A stretch of DNA of 64,000 nucleotides, from positions 62,001-126,000 of the forward strand of contig CAJQON010000004.1 of assembly GCA_905479995.1 (NCBI GenBank), in the 5' to 3' direction. The notes under the pieces are model-generated. The model did not search any database. It was given only the letters and a program-made list of their open reading frames with translations, and was not told the origin of the DNA. The translations under genes and the position numbers were made by a program. Shown piece by piece: positions 38,294 to 50,517 of this stretch. Origin of the DNA: an uncultured Flavobacteriales bacterium (GTDB lineage Bacteria > Bacteroidota > Bacteroidia > Flavobacteriales_E > Vicingaceae). Positions within the stretch are counted from its first letter, which is position 1, and each line of letters opens with the position of its first letter.

Positions 38294-39556
38294 CTACATC
38301 ACCAAACTAAGTAATTCTGGTTTTTCATTAAGGTATTCACCCAACATTCCTTTGGCATTTATCCGCTCCATTAATGGCGTTAAGTCTGTTTTGTTTTTAA
38401 GACGTACTCCTACTATGGCTGGTCCTTTTTCTCTGTTGTGTTTTTGTGAGAATTCAAAAAAGGTAATGTCGTCATTGGGTCCTAGAACTTCATTTACAAA
38501 TTCTTTTAGGGCTCCTGCTCGTTGAGCAAAGTTGACTATGAAGTAATGTTTTAACCCAGAATGCAATAAAGCACGTTCTTTAATTTCTTCCATCCGAACA
38601 ATGTCGTTATTGCTTCCACTTACTAAACAAACTACGTTTTTTCCTTTTATTTCGTTAGCAAACTGTTCTAAGGCAGCTAAGGTTAATGCACCTGCAGGTT
38701 CTACAACTATAGCATCTTTATTGTAGAGCTTTAGTATGGTTTCGCATACTTGACCTTCTTGTACTGTAACCATTTTGTTTAAGGTTTGCTTACAGATGTT
38801 AAAAGTTAAATTGCCCACTTTTTGTACGGCAGCTCCATCTACAAATTTGTTAATGGAGTTTAGTTTGGTGTTAACTCCGTTTTGTAATGATGTTTGCATG
38901 GATGGTGCCCCGGCAGGTTCTACTCCTATTATTTTTGTGTTGGGAGATAATTCCTTAAACACAGCAGATACACCAGCAGCAAGTCCTCCACCTCCAACGG
39001 GCAGAAAAAGGTAATCTATTGGTTCATTGCTTTGTTCTAATATTTCTAAGGCAACAGTTCCTTGTCCTTCTATTACTTTTTCATCATCAAAGGGAGGTAC
39101 AAAGGTCATTTTATGTTCTAAACAATAAGCCTTTGCCGCTACCTGAGCATCATCAAAGGTATCTCCTACCAATTTAATTTCTACCCAAGTTTCACCAAAC
39201 ATGTTTACCTGATCTATCTTTTGCTGGGGCGTTGGCGTTGGCATAAAGACAACTCCTTTTACTTTTTTGGCTTTACACGAATAAGCAACTCCTTGTGCAT
39301 GATTACCTGCACTAGCACATACCACCCCTCTTTCTAACTCTTGTTGAGAGAGATTACTTATTTTATTGTAGGCTCCTCTAATTTTGTAGGAACGTACAAT
39401 TTGTAGGTCTTCTCTTTTTAGAAATACGTTGGCCTGATGCTCTTTAGATGCATTTAAGTTTTGCATTAAAGGGGTAACAGCAGCAACACCTTTTAAGGTT
39501 GTTGCTGCTTGTTTTACATCTTGTATAGCAGGAAAGTATGCTTTAACTGTGGTCAT
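38294..39556 (-). CDS. ilvA: Threonine dehydratase (biosynthetic type)
   Basis: The product is 420 residues. The PLP lysine is in RSYKIRGAYNKI (Lys near residue 56), with CASAGNHAQGVAYSC and the phosphate-binding PVGGGGLAAG loop. A single C-terminal ACT-like regulatory domain (about 330-420) makes this the short form found in Corynebacterium and Bacillus rather than the two-ACT E. coli type. It converts threonine to 2-oxobutanoate, the entry to isoleucine synthesis. It is the last gene of the ilv operon, ten bases after ilvC. Confidence 0.94.
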   Translation of the reverse strand: MTTVKAYFPAIQDVKQAATTLKGVAAVTPLMQNLNASKEHQANVFLKREDLQIVRSYKIRGAYNKISNLSQQELERGVVCASAGNHAQGVAYSCKAKKVKGVVFMPTPTPQQKIDQVNMFGETWVEIKLVGDTFDDAQVAAKAYCLEHKMTFVPPFDDEKVIEGQGTVALEILEQSNEPIDYLFLPVGGGGLAAGVSAVFKELSPNTKIIGVEPAGAPSMQTSLQNGVNTKLNSINKFVDGAAVQKVGNLTFNICKQTLNKMVTVQEGQVCETILKLYNKDAIVVEPAGALTLAALEQFANEIKGKNVVCLVSGSNNDIVRMEEIKERALLHSGLKHYFIVNFAQRAGALKEFVNEVLGPNDDITFFEFSQKHNREKGPAIVGVRLKNKTDLTPLMERINAKGMLGEYLNEKPELLSLVM

Positions 39557-39566
39557 AATACACCGT

Positions 39567-41042
39567 TTAATTTAAGTTTTGCATGGCTATCATGGATGCT
39601 CTTAATTCGTAACCTATTGCCTCTATTGGATGGTAACGAATAAATTCATTGATCTGAATTAGTTCTTTATTGTCTACCCCATAACCAGCAGTTTCATTAA
39701 AGTTTTTACCAATTAGGTTGATGTCTATTTTGGTCATAAAATCGGCCAATAAAGATTTACACGAATGATCGAAAAGGTAACAACCGTATTCGGCAGTATC
39801 GCTAATGATGCGGTTCATTTCAAATAACTTTTTCCGGGCAATGGTGTTGGCAATTAATGGCGCTTCGTGTAAGGATTCGTAATAGGCTGATTCTTCTTTT
39901 ATGCCAGATTCTACCATTGTTTCGAAAGCCAATTCTACACCTGCTTTTACCATTGCTACCATTAACAAACCATTGTCAAAAAATTCTTGTTCTGTTATTT
40001 CTTGATCTCCCGCAGTGGTTTTCTCAAAAGCTGTTTCACCTGTTTCAGCTCTCCATTTTAGTAGGTTTTCATCGTTATTAGCCCAATCTTTCATCATTCC
40101 ATCTGAAAAAGCACCCGACATTATATCGTCCATGTGTTTATCAAACAATGGGGTCATTATTGTTTTTAGTTCTTCGGCCAAAAGAAAGGCTTTTATTTTA
40201 GCTGGATTAGAAAGCCTGTCCATCATGTTGGTTATTCCGCCATGTTTTAAGGCTTCAGTTATAACTTCCCAACCGTGTTGAATTAGTTTTACAGCATAAG
40301 TAGGTTCAATTCCTTTTTCAACCATTTTATCGAAACACAAAATAGAACCTGTTTGTAGTACGCCACATAGTATGGTTTGCTCGCCCATTAGGTCGGATTT
40401 TACTTCGGCTACAAATGAGGAGTGCAATACGCCTGCTTTATGACCTCCTGTACCTACTGCATAAGCTTTGGCCAATTCAAACCCTTGATTATTAGAGTCG
40501 TTTTCTGGGTGTACAGCAATAAGTGTTGGTACTCCAAACCCTCTTTTAAATTCTTCACGCACTTCTGTTCCTGGCGATTTTGGTGCCATCATTATTACGG
40601 TAATGTCTTCTCTTACTTTCATTCCTTCTTCTACAATGTTAAAGCCATGTGAGTAGGATAAGGCAGCACCTTTTTTCATTAATGGCATTACTGCATTAAC
40701 AACGCTGGTGTGCTGCTTGTCTGGCGTAAGGTTAATGACTAAGTCGGCCTCAGGAATCATTTCTTGGTAGTTTCCTACTTTAAAGTTGTTTGTGCTAGCA
40801 TTTTGGTAGGATGTTCTTTTTTCTTGTATGGCAGCATCGCGCAATGCATAGGCTACATCTAACCCTGAATCTCTTAGGTTTAGACCTTGGTTTAAGCCTT
40901 GTGCGCCACAACCTACTATTACAATTTTTTTTCCTTCTAAGGCTTTTGTTCCGTTTGTAAATTCCGAAGAATCCATAAAGTCACAGGTTCCCAATTGCTC
41001 TAATTGACTTCTTAGTGGTAGGGTGTTAAAATAATTTTTCAT
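39567..41042 (-). CDS. ilvC: Ketol-acid reductoisomerase (class II, long form)
   Basis: The product is 491 residues, the long class II form with a duplicated knotted C-terminal domain. The NADPH-binding loop is [19 protein letters not shown] near residue 43, and the metal-binding acid residues are in [13 protein letters not shown] and the later [13 protein letters not shown] copy. It isomerises and reduces acetolactate and acetohydroxybutyrate using magnesium and NADPH. It starts eight bases after the ilvN stop. Confidence 0.96.
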
Positions 41043-41049
41043 TTTGTTT

Positions 41050-41586
41050 TTATTTATGCGCTGACGCTATTTCTAATTCTTGTAAATAATCTTTTAATTC
41101 TTTCATAGGTTTGGTTATAGCTACTCTACCCGACCGAACAAATTCTAATATACCATAAGGTTCCAGTTCATCAAAGAGGTCTTGTGTTTCTTCTTTGTGT
41201 CCTGTTTTTTCTATGATGGTAAAGGCTGGTTCCATGGTTAAAAACCGCGCGTTGTGTTTACGTACAATTTTCTCTGCATTACCACCAGCAGCCAATACAT
41301 TGGTGGCTACTTTATAAAGTGCAATTTCTTGGTAAACCAAGTTGTCATTACTGTGGTAAAATGCCCCAACAACATCTACTTGCTTGTCCAATTGTTTTAC
41401 CACTTTTATAACCAACTCTTCAGTTTCGTTAATTACTATGGTATAGCGGTGTATGCCTTTAATTTCACTTTCGGAAGCAGCTATGCTTTCTATGTTGATG
41501 TGCCTTCTGGTAAATATTATACTTACTCGGTTAAGCAATCCTATTTGATCTTCAGTAAATACTGATATGGTATATTGTTTTTTCAT
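41050..41586 (-). CDS. ilvN: Acetolactate synthase small (regulatory) subunit
   Basis: The product is 178 residues. An N-terminal ACT domain ([20 protein letters not shown], with [14 protein letters not shown]) binds valine in the family, and a C-terminal ALS_ss_C domain ([20 protein letters not shown] ... [12 protein letters not shown]) completes the subunit. It activates IlvB and gives feedback inhibition. The 146-base gap to ilvB, much larger than any other gap in the operon, contains a palindromic repeat. Confidence 0.94.
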
Positions 41587-41732: not shown

Positions 41733-43460
41733 CTAACATAATCTTATGTCTGATACTGAAGCACCTGTTTCTACCATAGGAAATACGTTGTTTTCTTTTC
41801 CTACCATAACTTCTAGCAAGTAAGATCCTTTGTGGTTTAACATTGTGTTTAGTGCATCTTTTAAATTCGCTCTAGCATCAACTTTATTGCTTGCAATTCC
41901 ATACCCTTTTGCTATGGTTTGAAAGTCGGGGTTTACCATTTCTGTAGATGAGTAACGCTTGTCAAAAAACAAGTCTTGCCATTGTCTTACCATTCCTAAA
42001 AATTGGTTGTTCAGGATTAATATTTTGATGTCTATTTTGGTTTGAAAGATGGTACCTAATTCTTGTATGGTCATTTGAAAACCACCATCGCCAATTACCG
42101 CAATTACTTGTCTTTGCTGAGCGCCAAATTTAGCTCCTATTGCAGCTGGCAAGCAAAAGCCCATTGTTCCTAAACCACCAGAGGTAATCATGCTTTTTGT
42201 TTGTTTAAACTCGGCATATCTGCAGGCTACCATTTGGTGCTGACCAACATCTGTAACAACTATGGCTTCGCCATTGGTTATTTCATTTATACGAGCCACT
42301 ACTTCTCCCATGGTTAATTCATTGGCAGTTGAGTTGGTTTCTCCTTGTATTACTTTTTCATTCTCGATGGCTTTTAATTCATAGAATTTGTTTAACCAGT
42401 TTAAATGATCTGTTTGATCTACCAATTTAGTTAATGCTGATAGTGACACTTTACAGTTTCCTACTACTGCTACTGCAGTTTTTACGTTTTTGTCAACTTC
42501 TGCTGGATCTATTTCTAAATGAACCACTTTAGCTTGTTTGGCGTAGCGCTTTAAATCGCCTGTTACTCTATCGTCAAAACGCATCCCAACAGCTATTAAA
42601 ACGTCACATTCGTTGGTGAGTACATTTGGTGCATAGTTACCGTGCATTCCTAACATACCCATGTTTAATACATGATCTGAATCTAAAGCTGATAATCCCA
42701 TTATGGTCCAAGCAGCAGGTAAACCAGCTTTTTCTATAAAGGCTTTAAATTCTGCTTCTGCCTCTGCTAGTATTACACCTTGACCAAATAACACCAATGG
42801 CTTTTTGGCTTTGTTGATGAGCTGTGCAGCTTCTTCAACTTTGTTTTGCTCTATTTTAGGTTGTGGTACGTATGTTCTAACTTGTTGGCATGGTTTGTAT
42901 TTAAAATTAATTTGACCAAATTGTGCATCTTTGGTGATGTCTACCAATACTGGTCCTGGTCGTCCAGATTGTGCCACATAAAATGCTTTTGCTATTGCAG
43001 CAGGGATATCTTCTGCTTTGGTAACCTGACAGTTCCATTTTGTAACTGGCATTGAAATACCTACAACATCAGTTTCTTGAAAGGCATCGGTTCCCAACAA
43101 GTGAGAATGTACTTGCCCGGTTATACAAACCAATGGTGTAGAATCTATTTGAGCATCTGCTATACCTGTTATTAAGTTGGTAGCTCCTGGGCCTGATGTT
43201 GCGATACAAACTCCTACTTTGCCCGATGATCGAGCATAGCCTTGCGCTGCATGTATTGCGCCTTGTTCATGACGGGTAAGGATGTGCTTAAGCTCTTCTT
43301 GGTAGTCGTACATAGCATCGTAAACCGGCATTATTGCTCCTCCAGGATAACCAAACATTAAGTCTACCCCTTCGGCTAATAAGCTTTTTACAACTGCTTC
43401 TGCTCCTGATATTTTAACCTTTTTCATGGTTTTTTTCTCTTTTAACTTAAGTGTTTCCAT
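41733..43460 (-). CDS. ilvB: Acetolactate synthase large (catalytic) subunit
   Basis: The product is 575 residues. The TPP-dependent fold shows the catalytic glutamate region LTRHEQGAIHAAQGYAR, the quinone-oxidase-like middle domain, and the TPP/magnesium motif from GDGGFQMTIQELGTI to LILNN near residue 455. It makes acetolactate or acetohydroxybutyrate. The ATG at 43460 follows the ilvD stop by one base; an internal ATG at 43427 (MKKVKISGAEAVVKSL) is the alternative start and fits the family N-terminus better. Confidence 0.95.
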   Translation of the reverse strand: METLKLKEKKTMKKVKISGAEAVVKSLLAEGVDLMFGYPGGAIMPVYDAMYDYQEELKHILTRHEQGAIHAAQGYARSSGKVGVCIATSGPGATNLITGIADAQIDSTPLVCITGQVHSHLLGTDAFQETDVVGISMPVTKWNCQVTKAEDIPAAIAKAFYVAQSGRPGPVLVDITKDAQFGQINFKYKPCQQVRTYVPQPKIEQNKVEEAAQLINKAKKPLVLFGQGVILAEAEAEFKAFIEKAGLPAAWTIMGLSALDSDHVLNMGMLGMHGNYAPNVLTNECDVLIAVGMRFDDRVTGDLKRYAKQAKVVHLEIDPAEVDKNVKTAVAVVGNCKVSLSALTKLVDQTDHLNWLNKFYELKAIENEKVIQGETNSTANELTMGEVVARINEITNGEAIVVTDVGQHQMVACRYAEFKQTKSMITSGGLGTMGFCLPAAIGAKFGAQQRQVIAVIGDGGFQMTIQELGTIFQTKIDIKILILNNQFLGMVRQWQDLFFDKRYSSTEMVNPDFQTIAKGYGIASNKVDARANLKDALNTMLNHKGSYLLEVMVGKENNVFPMVETGASVSDIRLC

Positions 43461-43461
43461 C

Positions 43462-45138
43462 TTAAAATTTGTCTGTTACGCATCCTTCAGATGCTGATGA
43501 AACGGTATGAGCGTATTTGTACAATACACCTCTTTTTATTTTTAATGCTGGTTGAACCCAACTTGCTTTTCTTTGAGCTAATTCTTCTTTCGATAAATCA
43601 ACTACTATGGTGTTTGCTTCTGCATCTATGGTAATGACATCTCCATCTTGCAACAATCCTATTGCACCACCTTCTTGTGCTTCAGGAGTTATGTGCCCTA
43701 CTACAAATCCGTGTGTTCCTCCAGAAAAACGACCATCGGTTATTAAGGCTACATCATTACCCAATCCTGCACCCATTATGGCTGCTGTTGGCTTGAGCAT
43801 TTCTGGCATTCCAGGACCACCTTTTGGTCCTTCATATCGGATTACCACAACATCGCCTTTTTCTACTTCTCCTTTTCTTATACCATCGTTTGCAGCGTAC
43901 TCACCATCATAAACTTTGGCTTTTCCAACAAATTTCAATCCTTCTTTACCTGTTATTTTGGCAACAGATCCTTCCAAGGCTAGGTTACCTTTTAGTATTC
44001 TTATGTGACCTGTTTCTTTTAATGGATTTTCTATTGGCCTAACAACATCCTGATTGGCAAGCAAGTCTGGAACATTGGCTAAATTTTCGGCCAAAGTTTT
44101 ACCAGTTACTGTTAAACAATCGCCATGCAACATGCCTTTACCTAATAGGTATTTTAATACTGCCGGTGTTCCCCCCACTTTATGCACATCTTCCATGAGG
44201 TATTGACCGCTTGGTTTTAGATCGGCCAAAAATGGAGTTTGATCGCTTATTCTTTGAAAGTCTTCTAAAGTAAAATCAACCCCAGCAGCATCTGCTATGG
44301 CTAAAAAGTGTAATACGGCATTGGTTGAACCACCCAACACAGTAACTAAGGTAATTGCGTTTTCTAATGATTTTTTAGAAACGATATCAGATGGTTTTAT
44401 ATCTAGCTTTAACAATTCCATTACCTGAACTCCTGCCTCAGCACTTTCTTTTTCTTTGTCTACACCTAACGCTGGGTTTGATGAGTTGTAAGGCAATGCC
44501 ATTCCTAATGCCTCAATAGCTGACGCCATTGTATTGGCAGTATACATTCCTCCGCAAGCTCCTGCACCTGGAACTGCATTTTCTATGATTTCTTGGTATT
44601 CTTTTTCACCCATGGTTCCTGCAACTTTAGCTCCCCATGCTTCAAATGATGAAACGATGTCTAATTTTTTACCATGGCAATTTCCAGAATCTACGGTTCC
44701 ACCATAAACTAAAACTGAAGGACGATCTAAACGTAACATGGCGATTAGTGCTCCCGGCATGTTTTTATCACATCCAACAACGGTAACCAATCCATCATAA
44801 CTCAATCCTTCTACAACAGTTTCCATAGAGTCGGCAATTACATCTCTAGATGGTAATGAGAAACGCATACCGGGAGTTCCCATAGAAATACCATCGCTAA
44901 CACCTATGGTATTAAATATTAACCCTACTCCTACTGAATCGTTTATTCCTTGCTTTACATGTTTGGCTAAACCATTTAAATGCATGTTGCAAGGATTACC
45001 TTCGTAACCTGTACTACCGACTCCAACCAAAGGCTTTTTAAAGTCTTCTTTGGTTAATCCTATTGCATGTAACATCGCTTGAGCCGCTGGTTGCGTTTCA
45101 TCTTGTGTTACTCGTTTGCTGTATTTATTTAATTCCAT
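43462..45138 (-). CDS. ilvD: Dihydroxy-acid dehydratase
   Basis: The product is 558 residues, the usual length. Iron-sulfur cluster cysteines lie in [18 protein letters not shown] and the [15 protein letters not shown] motif. The C-terminal [19 protein letters not shown] segment is the signature of the IlvD/Edd family. It dehydrates dihydroxy acids to the oxo acids that IlvE aminates. It starts ten bases after ilvE. Confidence 0.96.
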
Positions 45139-45148
45139 AGTGCTGTTG

Positions 45149-46039
45149 TTATACTAAATCAAAACTTTTGTATTCTCTTGAGGAAACTCTATTTCTATAC
45201 ATTCTAGCTAATTGAGCGCCCATGGTGTCTTCCCAATCCATCGTAAATTTAACGTTGTCAAGAGATCCTATTCCGGCTACTTCTGCTGCTGTTCCTGTAA
45301 AAAATGCTCCATCGGCTCCTTTTACATCTTCTGGTGTGAAGTATTTTTCTTCTATGGTAAAGTTTAGTTCTTTAGCCATTTCAAATACTGTTGCTCGAGT
45401 TATTCCCGCTAATATATTACCCAATGGGCAGGTATAAATAACTCCATCTTTTTCGTAAAAGAAGTTTGCACCAGGCCCTTCTGCAACGTTTCCGTTGGCA
45501 TCTAATAATAATGCTTCATCAAAACCTTTTTGTTTGGCTTCGGTGGTTGCCAATATAGAGTTGGTATAATGCCCCACTACTTTGGCTTCTACATGACAAG
45601 ATTTTGGGTTTGGTCTTTGGTAAGATGATGTCATTAGGTTTAACATATCGTTTCCTAAATATTTCCCCCATTCCCATGCACATAAAAAAACATTTACTTC
45701 TTCAGTTGGCTGTAAAGCCATGTTTGCACCCAAATAAACTAACGGTCTTATGTATGCATTAGATAGTCCGTTTTTTTCTAATAGTTCATAAGTCAAATCG
45801 ACCAACTCTTCTACAGTATAGTTTAAATTAATGTGCATTTTTTCTGCTGAATAAAGCAATCTTTCATAATGTTCTTTTGCTTTAAACACCTGAACTCCAT
45901 CTTCAGTATCGTATGCACGAATACCTTCAAACACTCCATTTCCATAATGCATGGTTTGATTGTACAAATCGGTTTGAGCATCTTTTGCTTTTAACCATTT
46001 TCCATTTAAGTATACCGTTGTTTCTTCGTTGTAATACAT
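45149..46039 (-). CDS. ilvE: Branched-chain amino acid aminotransferase
   Basis: The product is 296 residues, a class IV PLP aminotransferase. The PLP lysine is in [18 protein letters not shown] (Lys near 153). [15 protein letters not shown] and the phosphate-binding [11 protein letters not shown] follow. It transfers amino groups to the branched-chain oxo acids. It is the first gene of the operon. Its ATG is preceded by an A/T-rich stretch and the attenuator hairpin. Confidence 0.95.
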
Positions 46040-46070
46040 TTTTTATTTTTTTTATTTTTTTACATAAAAA

Positions 46071-46094
46071 AAACCATCCTGTTTAGGATGGTTT
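46071..46094 (-). terminator. Attenuator terminator hairpin upstream of ilvE
   Basis: AAACCATCCT (46071-46080) and AGGATGGTTT (46085-46094) form a ten-base perfect stem with a four-base loop. On the minus strand it is followed by eight T residues and then the ilvE start region. Its 5' arm (CCATCCT on the minus strand, 46085-46091) can pair instead with an upstream AGGATGG at 46126-46132. Confidence 0.85.
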
Positions 46095-46120
46095 TTAATC
46101 TAATAATGTTTCACTATTAC

Positions 46121-46189
46121 CTATACCATCCTCTGTTCATTATTAATAATAATGACTTGAATAAATGATATGTTAATTGCTGTTCTCAA
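46121..46189 (-). promoter_or_regulatory. Ile-rich leader frame of the ilv attenuator
   Basis: From a TTG at 46189 this frame encodes MRTAINISFIQVIIINNEQR plus two residues and a TAG (46121-46123). It holds six isoleucine codons and one valine codon within 11 codons, ending in three consecutive ATT. No ATG is present, so the start codon is uncertain. An overlapping ATG frame (46117-46140, MNRGWYR) is the alternative. The antiterminator AGGATGG lies just 3' of the isoleucine run. Confidence 0.6.
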
Positions 46190-46197
46190 AACTGATA

Positions 46198-46228
46198 CAA
46201 ATGTAGATTTATATTTAATACTTTTCAA
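46198..46228 (-). promoter_or_regulatory. Promoter of the ilv operon
   Basis: On the minus strand TTG (46226-46228), a 20-base spacer, and TACATTTG (46198-46205) form an exact -33/-7 pair of the Bacteroidota primary sigma factor. Transcription would begin near 46190-46194, producing a leader of about 150 bases before ilvE. Confidence 0.75.
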
Positions 46229-46260: not shown

Positions 46261-49200
46261 TTACCTTAACAAAGTAACCTTACCTACCTCATTTATTTTT
46301 TTACGAGATACAGGGTCTTCGAAGTTAATTTTCCATACATAAACATCGTTTTTAGCTGGTAGGTTTTTATAGCTTCCATCCCAACCCGACTCCACATCTC
46401 CACTTACAAATAAAAGCTCTCCCCAACGGTCGTATATTAACAATTGATAATCACTTACTTCAACACCAGAAAGTACTGGTTTAAATTCATCATTCATACT
46501 ATTAGCGTCTGGCGTAAATGCATTTGGAACATAAAAAAACAATACTCCTTCCACGGTAATGTCTTTACAAATACTGTCAACACATTGGTTTTCATCTACC
46601 ACCTTTAAACAAGCTTGGTAAGTCCCTTCTTCAACATCTGGAAAAGTTACAATTGGGCTAGATATGTTGCTCGTTGCTATCTGAACGTTAGGACCGAAAG
46701 TCCAGGAGTAAGTTGAAATATTATTGCCTGTTGATTCATCTTGAAACAATACTTCTGAAGACATAATATTGATATCATCTGGAGCATATGAGAAATCGGC
46801 AACTGGATTTTCGTAAACACAAACAGCGTTTAAAACAGTACTTGTACCTACACAGCCTACTGAATCGGTAATGGTGTAAGTAACATCATAACAACCTGGT
46901 ACTGTAAAGTTATAAGTTGAAGAGTCTCTAGTTGTAGCATTGGCTCCATTGCCCATTTCCCATAAAAATGTAGCATTGTAATAACTTGGATCGTTCACAT
47001 TGTCGGATATGAATTTAGCCAACACATTACCACACCCAGTAAATGTATTTGAAAAAGAAACAACTGGTGAACTTTGAACGGTTACCGTTACAGAAGCATT
47101 GTCTTCTGGCGTTCCACATCCATCTGTTAAGGTTACATTATAAACTGTAGTTGTTTGTGGCAAAACATTAACTGGATTACCTGCTCCTGCTCCATTATCC
47201 CATAAAAATGTATAATTACCATCTCCACCCGTTGCTGCAGCCTGAATTTGAACTGCATCACCTTCACAAATTGTTACATCATTAAAGGCTGTAACTTTTA
47301 ATGAATCACGAACAGTTATGGTTTGTGTTGCCGCGCTTGAAGGACAGTTATTGTCATCAGTAGCAGTTACTGTATAAGTTGAAGTGATTACTGGACTTAC
47401 ATTAGGATTTTGACCAACTCCAACACCATTATCCCAAGTATAAACTATTGTTCCAACTCCACCAGTTGAAAAAGAACCTAAGTTAACATTTTGTCCAATA
47501 CATATTGTTTGTGCAGCTGATGCTGAAACAACAATAGGCTGAGGAGAATTTATGTTTGCTACTGTATCTAACAAACACCCTGTGGCATTAGACAATTGTA
47601 AGTTATATATTCCATTACACAATCCCAGAAATTGATTAACTGCTGTTAGTGGACCGCCACTAATACCAAAACCATTAGCTGTTGTGCTATATAAGTTAAT
47701 TGAACCATCACATACACCAAAACAGGTTTCATCTTGAACAATAAGTGAATCTAAAACTATAGGCAAAGGCTCTGCAACAACAAAGTTTAGCGTATCAACT
47801 GTACAGCCATTCAAATCAGTAACTGTTAAGGAATAAGTTCCTGCAGCAACATTAATAGCTTGACTCTGACCAACACCAGCCAAGGCATTACTCCAAGCGT
47901 AATTGTAAATTGGTGTTCCTCCAACTACTGAAGCTGTAATTGTTCCATCTGAATAACCGTTGCAACTGGCATCATTTATTACAAAACTGTTCAGTAATAT
48001 TTCATCTGGCGCTGTAATAGTAATTGTACTATCTAATGAACAACCAGAACTATCGGTTACGCTTAACAAATATATTCCTGCACCTAAACCAGTAAAACTA
48101 GGAGAAATTTGATAGTTAGCTCCATTATCTATGCTGTAAGCATATTTAGTATCGCCACCGGTAACTCTAGAGAAGGTTATTGTTCCAGATGTATCTCCAA
48201 AACAATTTAAATTTGTTCCTACCACATCATATGATAACCCTTGATTAGCAGAAATATTAACTACAATAGAATCAGAACAACCATTAGCATCGATTACCTT
48301 AACTGTGTAAGCCCCTGCTGCTAAACCGGTAAATAATGAATTGTTTGTTTGTACATTTCCATTTACAGAATAATCAACAATACCAGTTGTATTACTTGCA
48401 AATACTGTAAGTTGACCAAAAGCACTATTACAGCCTCCATTTACAACAACTACTGAATCAATTTCTGCTGACACAAAAACTCCTGCAATATTTGTAGCGT
48501 CACATCCATTATCATCTACTATAGAGATTTCATAGCTATCACCATTAGATAATCCTGAAATTGTTACTGCACCTCCATGACTAGCAATAGTTGGAGAGCT
48601 TAATGTTCCAGCACCTATGTTGGTTATATTATAGTTTCCTACAAAGAATTCTGGATGACCGCCAGACACTGTAACTGTAACTGATCCATTAGAGCAATCT
48701 ACCACTGTATTTGTTGTTATAGGATTTAAATAGGTGACTTGGTAAGGTGTTCCCATATCATAACAAGTAGTATCCCAAACATTAGCATTTAATGCTGAAA
48801 TACTTAGAGTGATTGGCACAATCCAAACGGTATTATTTGTTGGCGCTTTACCAATTCCGTTTAAATAAGTGATGATGTTACTTGCATTTCCACCATTGTT
48901 TATTTCACCAACTGTTGGAGGTGTTTCTATAAATGCTCCAGAAAAACATGGGTCATTTTCTGGATGAACTCCTGCAGTTGGAGCACAAATATATATGGCG
49001 TAATCTAATGCTGGATTAGCACCTGTTGCTGCAGAGTACCCACCAGTTGTATCTACTAAAAAGCTATCATTGTTACATAATATGTATTGGTTTGCAGCTG
49101 TATTTACATTTGTTGAACTTCCTGATGTTGAAGCAACTGTTCCTCCTGTTGCTGCTGTACAGCCAGTACAAGGCGCAACAGTTACTGTAATAGGCGTTTG

Positions 49201-50517
49201 ACAAGAATCTATTCCGTTAGATACTTTTGCAATGTACGTTGTAGTAACTGCCGGATTTAGTGTAACTTGTACAGAATCGTTTACCGTAGTACTTGCAACT
49301 ACTAATCCTGTCCCCTGATCTGTAATGGTTAAAGTAGAAACCGCCCTAGTAGAAATTTTAATTTCATCAATTCCCCAACTATCTGTAGAAGCACTACTCG
49401 ATTTTGTTTGTATCCATCTAAAACTAGTATTGGCAGTTTGTGCAGCTGCTGGTATCGGTAATGTAGTTGTGTTCCAATCGTAAACATATTCTCCACAACC
49501 TAATAATCCTCCTCCCTCTGTACTAGGAAACATTAATTTAAATGTAGTCCAAGTCCCTCCATTGTTTGTTGAATATTGAACATAAACACCTTCTTTATCA
49601 TCTAAAGCTTCACATCCATTTCCACCATTGTCATCTGATGCTTGTCTAAAATCAAAACTTATCCAGCCACCTGAAGAAACATCAAATCCATTAGATTCTA
49701 ATATTCTCGGTGCTGCAACATTTTGCATCCACAAGTAAGTTGATCCACTATTTGTGTTGTAACCATTGTTTGGCTGACATCCCAATACGTTAAAAAAACT
49801 TGCTGAACCTGGAGTAGAATTCCAACCAGCACCCATGGTAGAGTTATTAAAATCGGTATTTATTGATGGGCTAGTTATATCGCCATAAGCTACCAAGTTT
49901 ACAGGATCACCTGGACAAATTGGGTTTGGAGTAGCCGTAATATTTACGTTACACCCCAATGTACTTTTCACAAAAGTTACAATGTCGCCTTCCCAACCAG
50001 CATATTGAGGGTTAAAACCATTGTTAAACCTAAAAGTTAACACTCCCGCAGCATTATTGGCACAAAACATTCCAGGACTTAATTGTGCAGCAATACCATT
50101 AATGGCATCCTGACCAACTCTATAAGGTGTTCCTCCTGCATTGTATTTAATGGAGTAATCACCTTGCAATGACCCAATTTGATTTGATGCAACAGTAGGT
50201 CCATCAAAAATCTCTAAGCGATCTGCATCTCCCCAAGAGTGTAAATAGGTTTTAAAAGAGGTAAAATCTACACAAACAGATTCTCCAGCAACTGCAGGAG
50301 TTAAAGTTATCGTGTAACTTGTATTTCCATCATTTCCTGCTGGGCCTCCAGCATCATAAAACTTGTCTCCAGTAGAAACACCAACCGAACCACCCGCACT
50401 AATTAAAACAGTAGATTGTGCTATTAGTTGGTTTTGTGAAATATAAAGTAAGGCTATGACAATTACAGAATTTAAAAATAAATTGTAATAAGTCAACTTA
50501 AAATTTTGTACTTTCAT
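46261..50517 (-). CDS. T9SS-secreted multidomain adhesin (CUB, reelin-like, SprB-type repeats, PKD, type B sorting domain)
   Basis: The 1418-residue protein has a signal peptide (to about 34) and a CUB-like domain (about 38-190, with DRLEIFDGP). A reelin-subrepeat-like domain lies at about 215-390 (WISFDFRQASDDNGGNGCEA, DSWGIDEIKIS). Several SprB/SprD-type repeats follow at about 690-1010 (CNGYSDGTITASVVGGTPIY, then NYAWS). Ig/PKD domains lead to about 1310. The gliding-motility-associated C-terminal domain covers about 1330-1418 (NAFTPDANSMNDEFKPV ... IYDRWGELLF). This type B signal directs export through T9SS and retention at the surface. Substrate or binding target is unknown. Confidence 0.9.
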   Translation of the reverse strand: MKVQNFKLTYYNLFLNSVIVIALLYISQNQLIAQSTVLISAGGSVGVSTGDKFYDAGGPAGNDGNTSYTITLTPAVAGESVCVDFTSFKTYLHSWGDADRLEIFDGPTVASNQIGSLQGDYSIKYNAGGTPYRVGQDAINGIAAQLSPGMFCANNAAGVLTFRFNNGFNPQYAGWEGDIVTFVKSTLGCNVNITATPNPICPGDPVNLVAYGDITSPSINTDFNNSTMGAGWNSTPGSASFFNVLGCQPNNGYNTNSGSTYLWMQNVAAPRILESNGFDVSSGGWISFDFRQASDDNGGNGCEALDDKEGVYVQYSTNNGGTWTTFKLMFPSTEGGGLLGCGEYVYDWNTTTLPIPAAAQTANTSFRWIQTKSSSASTDSWGIDEIKISTRAVSTLTITDQGTGLVVASTTVNDSVQVTLNPAVTTTYIAKVSNGIDSCQTPITVTVAPCTGCTAATGGTVASTSGSSTNVNTAANQYILCNNDSFLVDTTGGYSAATGANPALDYAIYICAPTAGVHPENDPCFSGAFIETPPTVGEINNGGNASNIITYLNGIGKAPTNNTVWIVPITLSISALNANVWDTTCYDMGTPYQVTYLNPITTNTVVDCSNGSVTVTVSGGHPEFFVGNYNITNIGAGTLSSPTIASHGGAVTISGLSNGDSYEISIVDDNGCDATNIAGVFVSAEIDSVVVVNGGCNSAFGQLTVFASNTTGIVDYSVNGNVQTNNSLFTGLAAGAYTVKVIDANGCSDSIVVNISANQGLSYDVVGTNLNCFGDTSGTITFSRVTGGDTKYAYSIDNGANYQISPSFTGLGAGIYLLSVTDSSGCSLDSTITITAPDEILLNSFVINDASCNGYSDGTITASVVGGTPIYNYAWSNALAGVGQSQAINVAAGTYSLTVTDLNGCTVDTLNFVVAEPLPIVLDSLIVQDETCFGVCDGSINLYSTTANGFGISGGPLTAVNQFLGLCNGIYNLQLSNATGCLLDTVANINSPQPIVVSASAAQTICIGQNVNLGSFSTGGVGTIVYTWDNGVGVGQNPNVSPVITSTYTVTATDDNNCPSSAATQTITVRDSLKVTAFNDVTICEGDAVQIQAAATGGDGNYTFLWDNGAGAGNPVNVLPQTTTVYNVTLTDGCGTPEDNASVTVTVQSSPVVSFSNTFTGCGNVLAKFISDNVNDPSYYNATFLWEMGNGANATTRDSSTYNFTVPGCYDVTYTITDSVGCVGTSTVLNAVCVYENPVADFSYAPDDINIMSSEVLFQDESTGNNISTYSWTFGPNVQIATSNISSPIVTFPDVEEGTYQACLKVVDENQCVDSICKDITVEGVLFFYVPNAFTPDANSMNDEFKPVLSGVEVSDYQLLIYDRWGELLFVSGDVESGWDGSYKNLPAKNDVYVWKINFEDPVSRKKINEVGKVTLLR

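Follow-up and report, generated by a model that had tools for sequence, protein, structure and literature searches.

A probable isoleucine/valine attenuator of the trp/his type upstream of ilvEDBNCA in an uncultured Flavobacteriales bacterium

Ribosome-mediated attenuation of amino-acid operons is textbook biology. For Bacteroidota, attenuation has been noted in general terms in Flavobacterium psychrophilum (PMC9723704) and in Bacteroides thetaiotaomicron; in the open-licence literature, we found only passing mentions of it for the phylum, and other accounts may have been missed. The leader-peptide attenuation of amino-acid operons in F. psychrophilum shares phylum and promoter type with the locus studied here; in the main text of that paper (PMC9723704), there is no mention of ilv, of three helices, of near-leaderless spacing or of a UUG start. 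Leaderless genes are common in Actinobacteria and rare in Bacteroidota (3.7-5.5%). The leader peptide IlvL of Corynebacterium glutamicum starts one nucleotide from the transcript start and has no ribosome-binding site (PMC11857589), and a leaderless leader peptide for branched-chain amino acids is also known from C. diphtheriae (PMC5784534).

We analyzed a 64,000-nucleotide stretch of DNA from an uncultured Flavobacteriales bacterium (the window), in which ilvE-ilvD-ilvB-ilvN-ilvC-ilvA form one minus-strand run from 46039 down to 38294. Gene identities were assigned with NCBIfam models, and all six genes scored above the cut-off. Upstream of ilvE, the minus strand carries, in this order, a promoter, a leader open reading frame (ORF) and an intrinsic terminator, followed by 26 nt to ilvE. 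Very probably, this region is a transcription attenuator of the trp/his type, operated by the ribosome in response to isoleucine and valine, that controls ilvEDBNCA, a reading we favor because of the six ilv genes directly downstream, the alternative folds, the leaders of relatives and the Trp and His attenuators in the same genome. Its support comes from sequence, folds and conservation; we infer the transcript start, the use of UUG, stalling and read-through. The features are as follows.

46226..46228, minus strand: -33 element of the promoter, TTG, separated from the -7 box by 20 nt (sequence; published Bacteroidota consensus)
46198..46205, minus strand: -7 promoter box TACATTTG (sequence; homologous boxes in relatives)
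46193, minus strand: predicted transcript start with a 5′ UTR of AGUU (4 nt), placed from the box position -12 to -5
46121..46189, minus strand: leader ORF, TTG start, LRTAINISFIQVIIINNEQRMV, TAG stop (sequence; length and start position match the ATG leader of the nearest relative, L003)
46145..46153, minus strand: control codons ATT ATT ATT (codons 13-15), with GTC just before (sequence; relatives have Ile/Val runs at the equivalent site)
46164..46171, minus strand: segment 1 (AUAUCAUU), pairs with segment 2 (minimum free energy fold; 87% of cells pair in nine relatives)
46123..46132, minus strand: segment 2 (AGGAUGGUAU), overlaps the stop codon and pairs with segment 1 or 3 (folds; complementarity and pairing in relatives)
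46101..46119, minus strand: small hairpin in the antiterminator loop (folds; sequence not conserved in relatives)
46066..46096, minus strand: intrinsic terminator formed by segments 3 and 4, AAAAACCAUCCU-AAAC-AGGAUGGUUUUU, with a U run (sequence, fold, terminator search, compensatory pair)
45149..46039, minus strand: ilvE, branched-chain aminotransferase (TIGR01122)
43462..45138, minus strand: ilvD, dihydroxy-acid dehydratase (TIGR00110)
41733..43460, minus strand: ilvB, acetolactate synthase large subunit (TIGR00118)
41050..41586, minus strand: ilvN, acetolactate synthase small subunit (TIGR00119)
39567..41042, minus strand: ilvC, ketol-acid reductoisomerase (NF003557)
38294..39556, minus strand: ilvA, threonine ammonia-lyase (TIGR02079)

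Judged by its sequence, the promoter TTG-N20-TACATTTG (46228-46198, minus strand) is of the Bacteroidota sigma-A type, for which the consensus TTTG/TAnnTTTG has been published (PMC6847099). The TAnnTTTG box of F. psychrophilum promoters occupies -12 to -5 (PMC9723704), which puts the predicted start of the ilv transcript at 46193, with a 5′ UTR of about 4 nt. The leader ORF (TTG AGA ACA GCA ATT AAC ATA TCA TTT ATT CAA GTC ATT ATT ATT AAT AAT GAA CAG AGG ATG GTA TAG; 46189-46121, minus strand) encodes 22 amino acids in 22 codons. Its Ile/Val frame, I-N-I-S-F-I-Q-V-I-I-I, holds six Ile codons and one Val codon in 11 codons, and the 21 codons after the start include 6 Ile and 2 Val. In DNA this rich in AT, such a density carries little weight by itself: 71 of 5,000 dinucleotide-preserving shuffles (1.4%) matched it. 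The original prediction, made from the letters of the window, had described the TTG-N20-box promoter, the 11-codon stretch with six Ile and one Val, a TAG at 46121 and the motif AGGATGG (46126-46132) just 3′ of the Ile run. We found each of these on the minus strand, with the promoter elements at 46228-46226 and 46205-46198, the stop codon at 46123-46121 and AGGATGG at 46132-46126; the coordinates and counts given in that prediction were correct.

The gene 5′ of the attenuator (46261-50517, minus strand) encodes a large secreted protein whose C-terminus carries a type IX secretion type B sorting domain. Between this gene and the ilv promoter, the search gave no terminator-like hairpin. The terminator could simply be that of this gene on the same strand, accompanied by a chance Ile-rich frame and without any role in ilv regulation: it is the sole strong terminator between the gene and ilvE, and AT-rich DNA yields Ile-rich frames fairly often, at the shuffle rate given above. 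However, the promoter is located upstream of the terminator, no second TAnnTTTG box was found between the terminator and ilvE, and the same architecture recurs across Bacteroidota, so that we regard this explanation as very improbable.

The fold of 46190-46040 reached -30.6 kcal/mol compared to -16.1 ± 2.9 kcal/mol in shuffles (z = -5.0), and the full leader formed three hairpins (z = -4.3 to -5.0). An 8-bp 1:2 helix, absent from the original prediction, joins AUAUCAUU (46171-46164) with GAUGGUAU (46130-46123) and encloses the control codons. The 2:3 helix joins AGGAUGGU (46132-46125) with ACCAUCCU (46092-46085), and 3:4 is the terminator (AAAAACCATCCT-AAAC-AGGATGGTTTTTTTT; 46096-46066, minus strand). 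The full leader folded into 1:2 plus 3:4. Removal of segment 1 together with the terminator 3′ arm led to formation of 2:3 (-16.4 kcal/mol), while removal of segment 1 only, with the 3′ arm kept, let the terminator win. The match between AGGATGGT and ACCATCCT at the stop codon was reached by none of 200 shuffles. The leader has the full trp/his-type competing set of 1:2, 2:3 and 3:4.

Transcription from TTG-N20-TACATTTG would start about 4 nt before the UUG, and a ribosome would load almost at the 5′ end. When Ile (or Val) is scarce, the ribosome would stall on codons 12-15, cover or unwind segment 1 and leave segment 2 free to pair with segment 3 (AGGAUGGU/ACCAUCCU), and RNA polymerase would read on into ilvE. 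When both amino acids are plentiful, a ribosome at the UAG would cover segment 2 and the 3:4 terminator would form. If no ribosome is present, 1:2 would form and leave 3:4 to terminate; because of this third helix, an untranslated leader should terminate. If the ribosome is taken to cover about 15 nt on either side of the P site, one with codon 15 in its A site would extend to about 46135, so that segment 2 stays free and the rear edge of the ribosome lies at segment 1; at the UAG, it would occupy about 46141-46111 and hide segment 2 completely. These modeled footprints fit the three-helix arrangement. The switch between stalling and the stop codon had been put forward in the original prediction, as had the terminator 5′ arm that pairs with either AGGATGG or its own 3′ arm. 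The arm pairing is borne out by the subsegment folds and by the complementarity in relatives, and the switch as a whole appears essentially right, since the features of the ilv leader are conserved in relatives and the alternative folds agree with it.

We regard conservation among relatives as the decisive evidence for the predicted attenuator. The regions upstream of 83 distinct Bacteroidota ilvE loci were compared, of which 78 extended over 200 nt or more; searching at the level of the order brought in no further genomes outside the family, and a plasmid collection searched for IlvE yielded distant homologues only, which were not useful. After removal of duplicates, 66 of the 83 loci contained 91 terminator-linked Ile/Val-rich leaders. 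An ORF with at least 28% Ile+Val preceded 93 of 100 terminator-like hairpins upstream of ilvE (20% in block-shuffled sequence), and one with at least 40% preceded 55 of 100 (4% of shuffles). The residues of the 91 leaders comprise 32% Ile, 12% Val and only 4% Leu. In most of them, a stop-proximal segment 2 complements the terminator 5′ arm, even though the pairs differ widely (GGATGG/CCATCC, GATACAG/CTGTATC, GGAAAGG/CCTTTCC, TGAGAA/TTCTCA), and the 5′ arms include CCATCC, CCTTTCC, CTGTATC and CTTCTCA. Taken leader by leader, this complementarity reached p<=0.05 against shuffles in only 46% of the 91; that of the window is among the best, and foreign arms do not match. Relatives thus retain an Ile/Val-rich leader ORF, a stop codon beside the strand that forms the antiterminator, and a terminator ahead of ilvE. 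A lack of conserved Ile/Val codons, which would have refuted the original prediction, was accordingly not observed.

In the nine closest leaders, 94% of the 1:2 and 3:4 cells are paired, compared to 31-55% with the partner slid by 1-3 columns; for 2:3, the values are 92% and 21-57%. The terminator shows a compensatory A-U for G-C at one pair against relatives. Double changes amount to two in 1:2/3:4 and none in 2:3. These alignments point to conservation of pairing more than to covariation; since the arms of close relatives are identical in sequence, there is little true double-sided covariation. Covariation as stand-alone proof was rejected, the nine closest leaders being too alike.

A leader that senses a ligand or tRNA (riboswitch or T-box) instead of the ribosome was also considered, since T-boxes, too, place a leader and a terminator ahead of amino-acid operons. 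However, conservation extends to the ORF and its codons rather than to an aptamer, relatives share no structure beyond the three helices, and an Rfam scan of the window for known leader, aptamer or T-box families gave no match at the gathering score. Such a sensor is extremely unlikely here.

The same genome offers strong support for ribosome-mediated attenuation as a working mechanism in this organism, since operon-specific codons precede each matching operon: WWW before trpE, HHHH before hisG and Ile/Val before ilv. The his, trp and thr genes and the HMGL-like family (PF00682, for leuA) were examined one by one. Upstream of trpE (L122, contig C34), TACATTTG lies 9 nt before the ATG, a near-leaderless spacing, and the leader MITTKNTNWWWFRFNSKA is followed by the terminator AAAGGCTTGTCGATTACGACAAGCCTTTTTTT. 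Upstream of hisG (L121 1-190, contig C13), the leader MNIIQLHHHHSHYCLQAK precedes a terminator, with 23 nt from box to ATG. No attenuator was found directly upstream of the homoserine dehydrogenase gene. The sole HMGL-like match in this genome (G000) was weak (E about 1e-20, 292 amino acids), and there was no clear leuA. The organism may make Ile and Val but not Leu, which agrees with the lack of any Leu codon after the TTG start of the leader.

At 25 of the 66 loci, two Ile/Val attenuators follow one another, and each has a separate leader ORF and terminator (these loci include L034, L037, L039, L040, L042, L096, L036, L041, L064, L069, L082, L084, L087 and L099-L103); in most of them, the second lacks a separate exact -7 box. 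Such a pair would act as an AND gate if read-through were needed at both. The window and L003 keep the first (CCATCC) type. In the close relatives L004, L005 and L006, the leader peptide VVIIGHER resembles that of the first tandem attenuator and the terminator is of the second (CCCTTCTC) type, so that two ancestral tandem attenuators seem to have fused in this leader.

The window is the sole leader among the 91 without an in-frame ATG. The original prediction had noted as an odd point that the Ile frame has only a TTG near the predicted transcript start, and this holds up. The nearest relative by IlvE (L003; 87% identity) has a leader, MKIKVIIPSIVNIIINNVTGMV, of 22 amino acids like that of the window, and its ATG aligns exactly with the TTG at 46189-46187; both lie 8 nt past the -7 box. 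Because of this homologous ATG, the TTG is likely the leader start, although it may reflect an error of the draft assembly. Bacteroidota ribosomes do not use Shine-Dalgarno pairing. An exact TAnnTTTG box precedes 34 leaders of relatives, and in 20 of these the distance from box to ATG is 7-10 nt (predicted 5′ UTR of 3-6 nt), whereas in shuffled sequence a box lies 6-10 nt upstream of only 0.3% of ATGs. A near-leaderless start unique to the genome of the window was thus rejected; the spacing is common in relatives, and the TTG alone is peculiar. Nor is the spacing universal, as trpE leaders of other Bacteroidota have 4-23 nt from box to ATG. Leaderless mRNAs make up 5.5% genome-wide in F. psychrophilum (PMC9723704), and 5′ UTRs below 10 nt make up 3.7% in B. 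thetaiotaomicron. Given this rarity and the frequent short spacing in ilv leaders, near-leaderless leader peptides look like a recurrent feature of such attenuators.

Leaderless mRNAs usually require AUG, and UUG starts in C. diphtheriae occur only in transcripts with a ribosome-binding site (PMC5784534); a near-leaderless UUG would therefore be unusual. Together with the missing ATG and the expected folding of untranslated RNA into 1:2 plus 3:4, this could indicate a decayed attenuator, in which the AUG was lost by mutation or through an error of the draft assembly and an untranslated leader with a near-constitutive terminator lowers operon expression. We consider such decay unlikely, as the Ile/Val run, the stop position and all three helices are intact and show no drift, TTG belongs to the standard start codons of bacteria and sits precisely at the homologous position, and the ilv operon is complete. 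With a functional attenuator as the preferred reading, a broader proposal, to which we would give slightly short of an even chance, is that Bacteroidota often build amino-acid attenuators on near-leaderless leaders (5′ UTR of 3-6 nt), with the first ribosome loading onto the RNA end while this end emerges from RNA polymerase, here at UUG. If so, the leader would provide an uncommon example of a (near-)leaderless mRNA that initiates at UUG, an initiation tuned to fix the basal level of read-through. The single TTG start of the window bears on how a near-leaderless mRNA without AUG initiates translation in Bacteroidota.

The 91 ilv leaders provide a testable catalogue for attenuation in Bacteroidota, in which leaders often begin almost at the predicted RNA end and many species have two attenuators in series. 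Compared to known systems, the locus resembles the trp, his and ilvGMEDA leaders of Escherichia coli in its 1:2, 2:3 and 3:4 helices, its control codons and its stop codon beside segment 2, but those leaders have a longer 5′ UTR and a Shine-Dalgarno-led AUG. The ilvBNC leader of C. glutamicum (IlvL, MTIIRLVVVTARRLP) likewise has codons for branched-chain amino acids and three competing hairpins (PMC11857589); it differs in its actinobacterial host, its ATG start and its unrelated sequence. The mechanism is thus already known, and the notable aspects are the probable near-leaderless UUG start in a phylum that does without Shine-Dalgarno pairing and the tandem attenuators in relatives.
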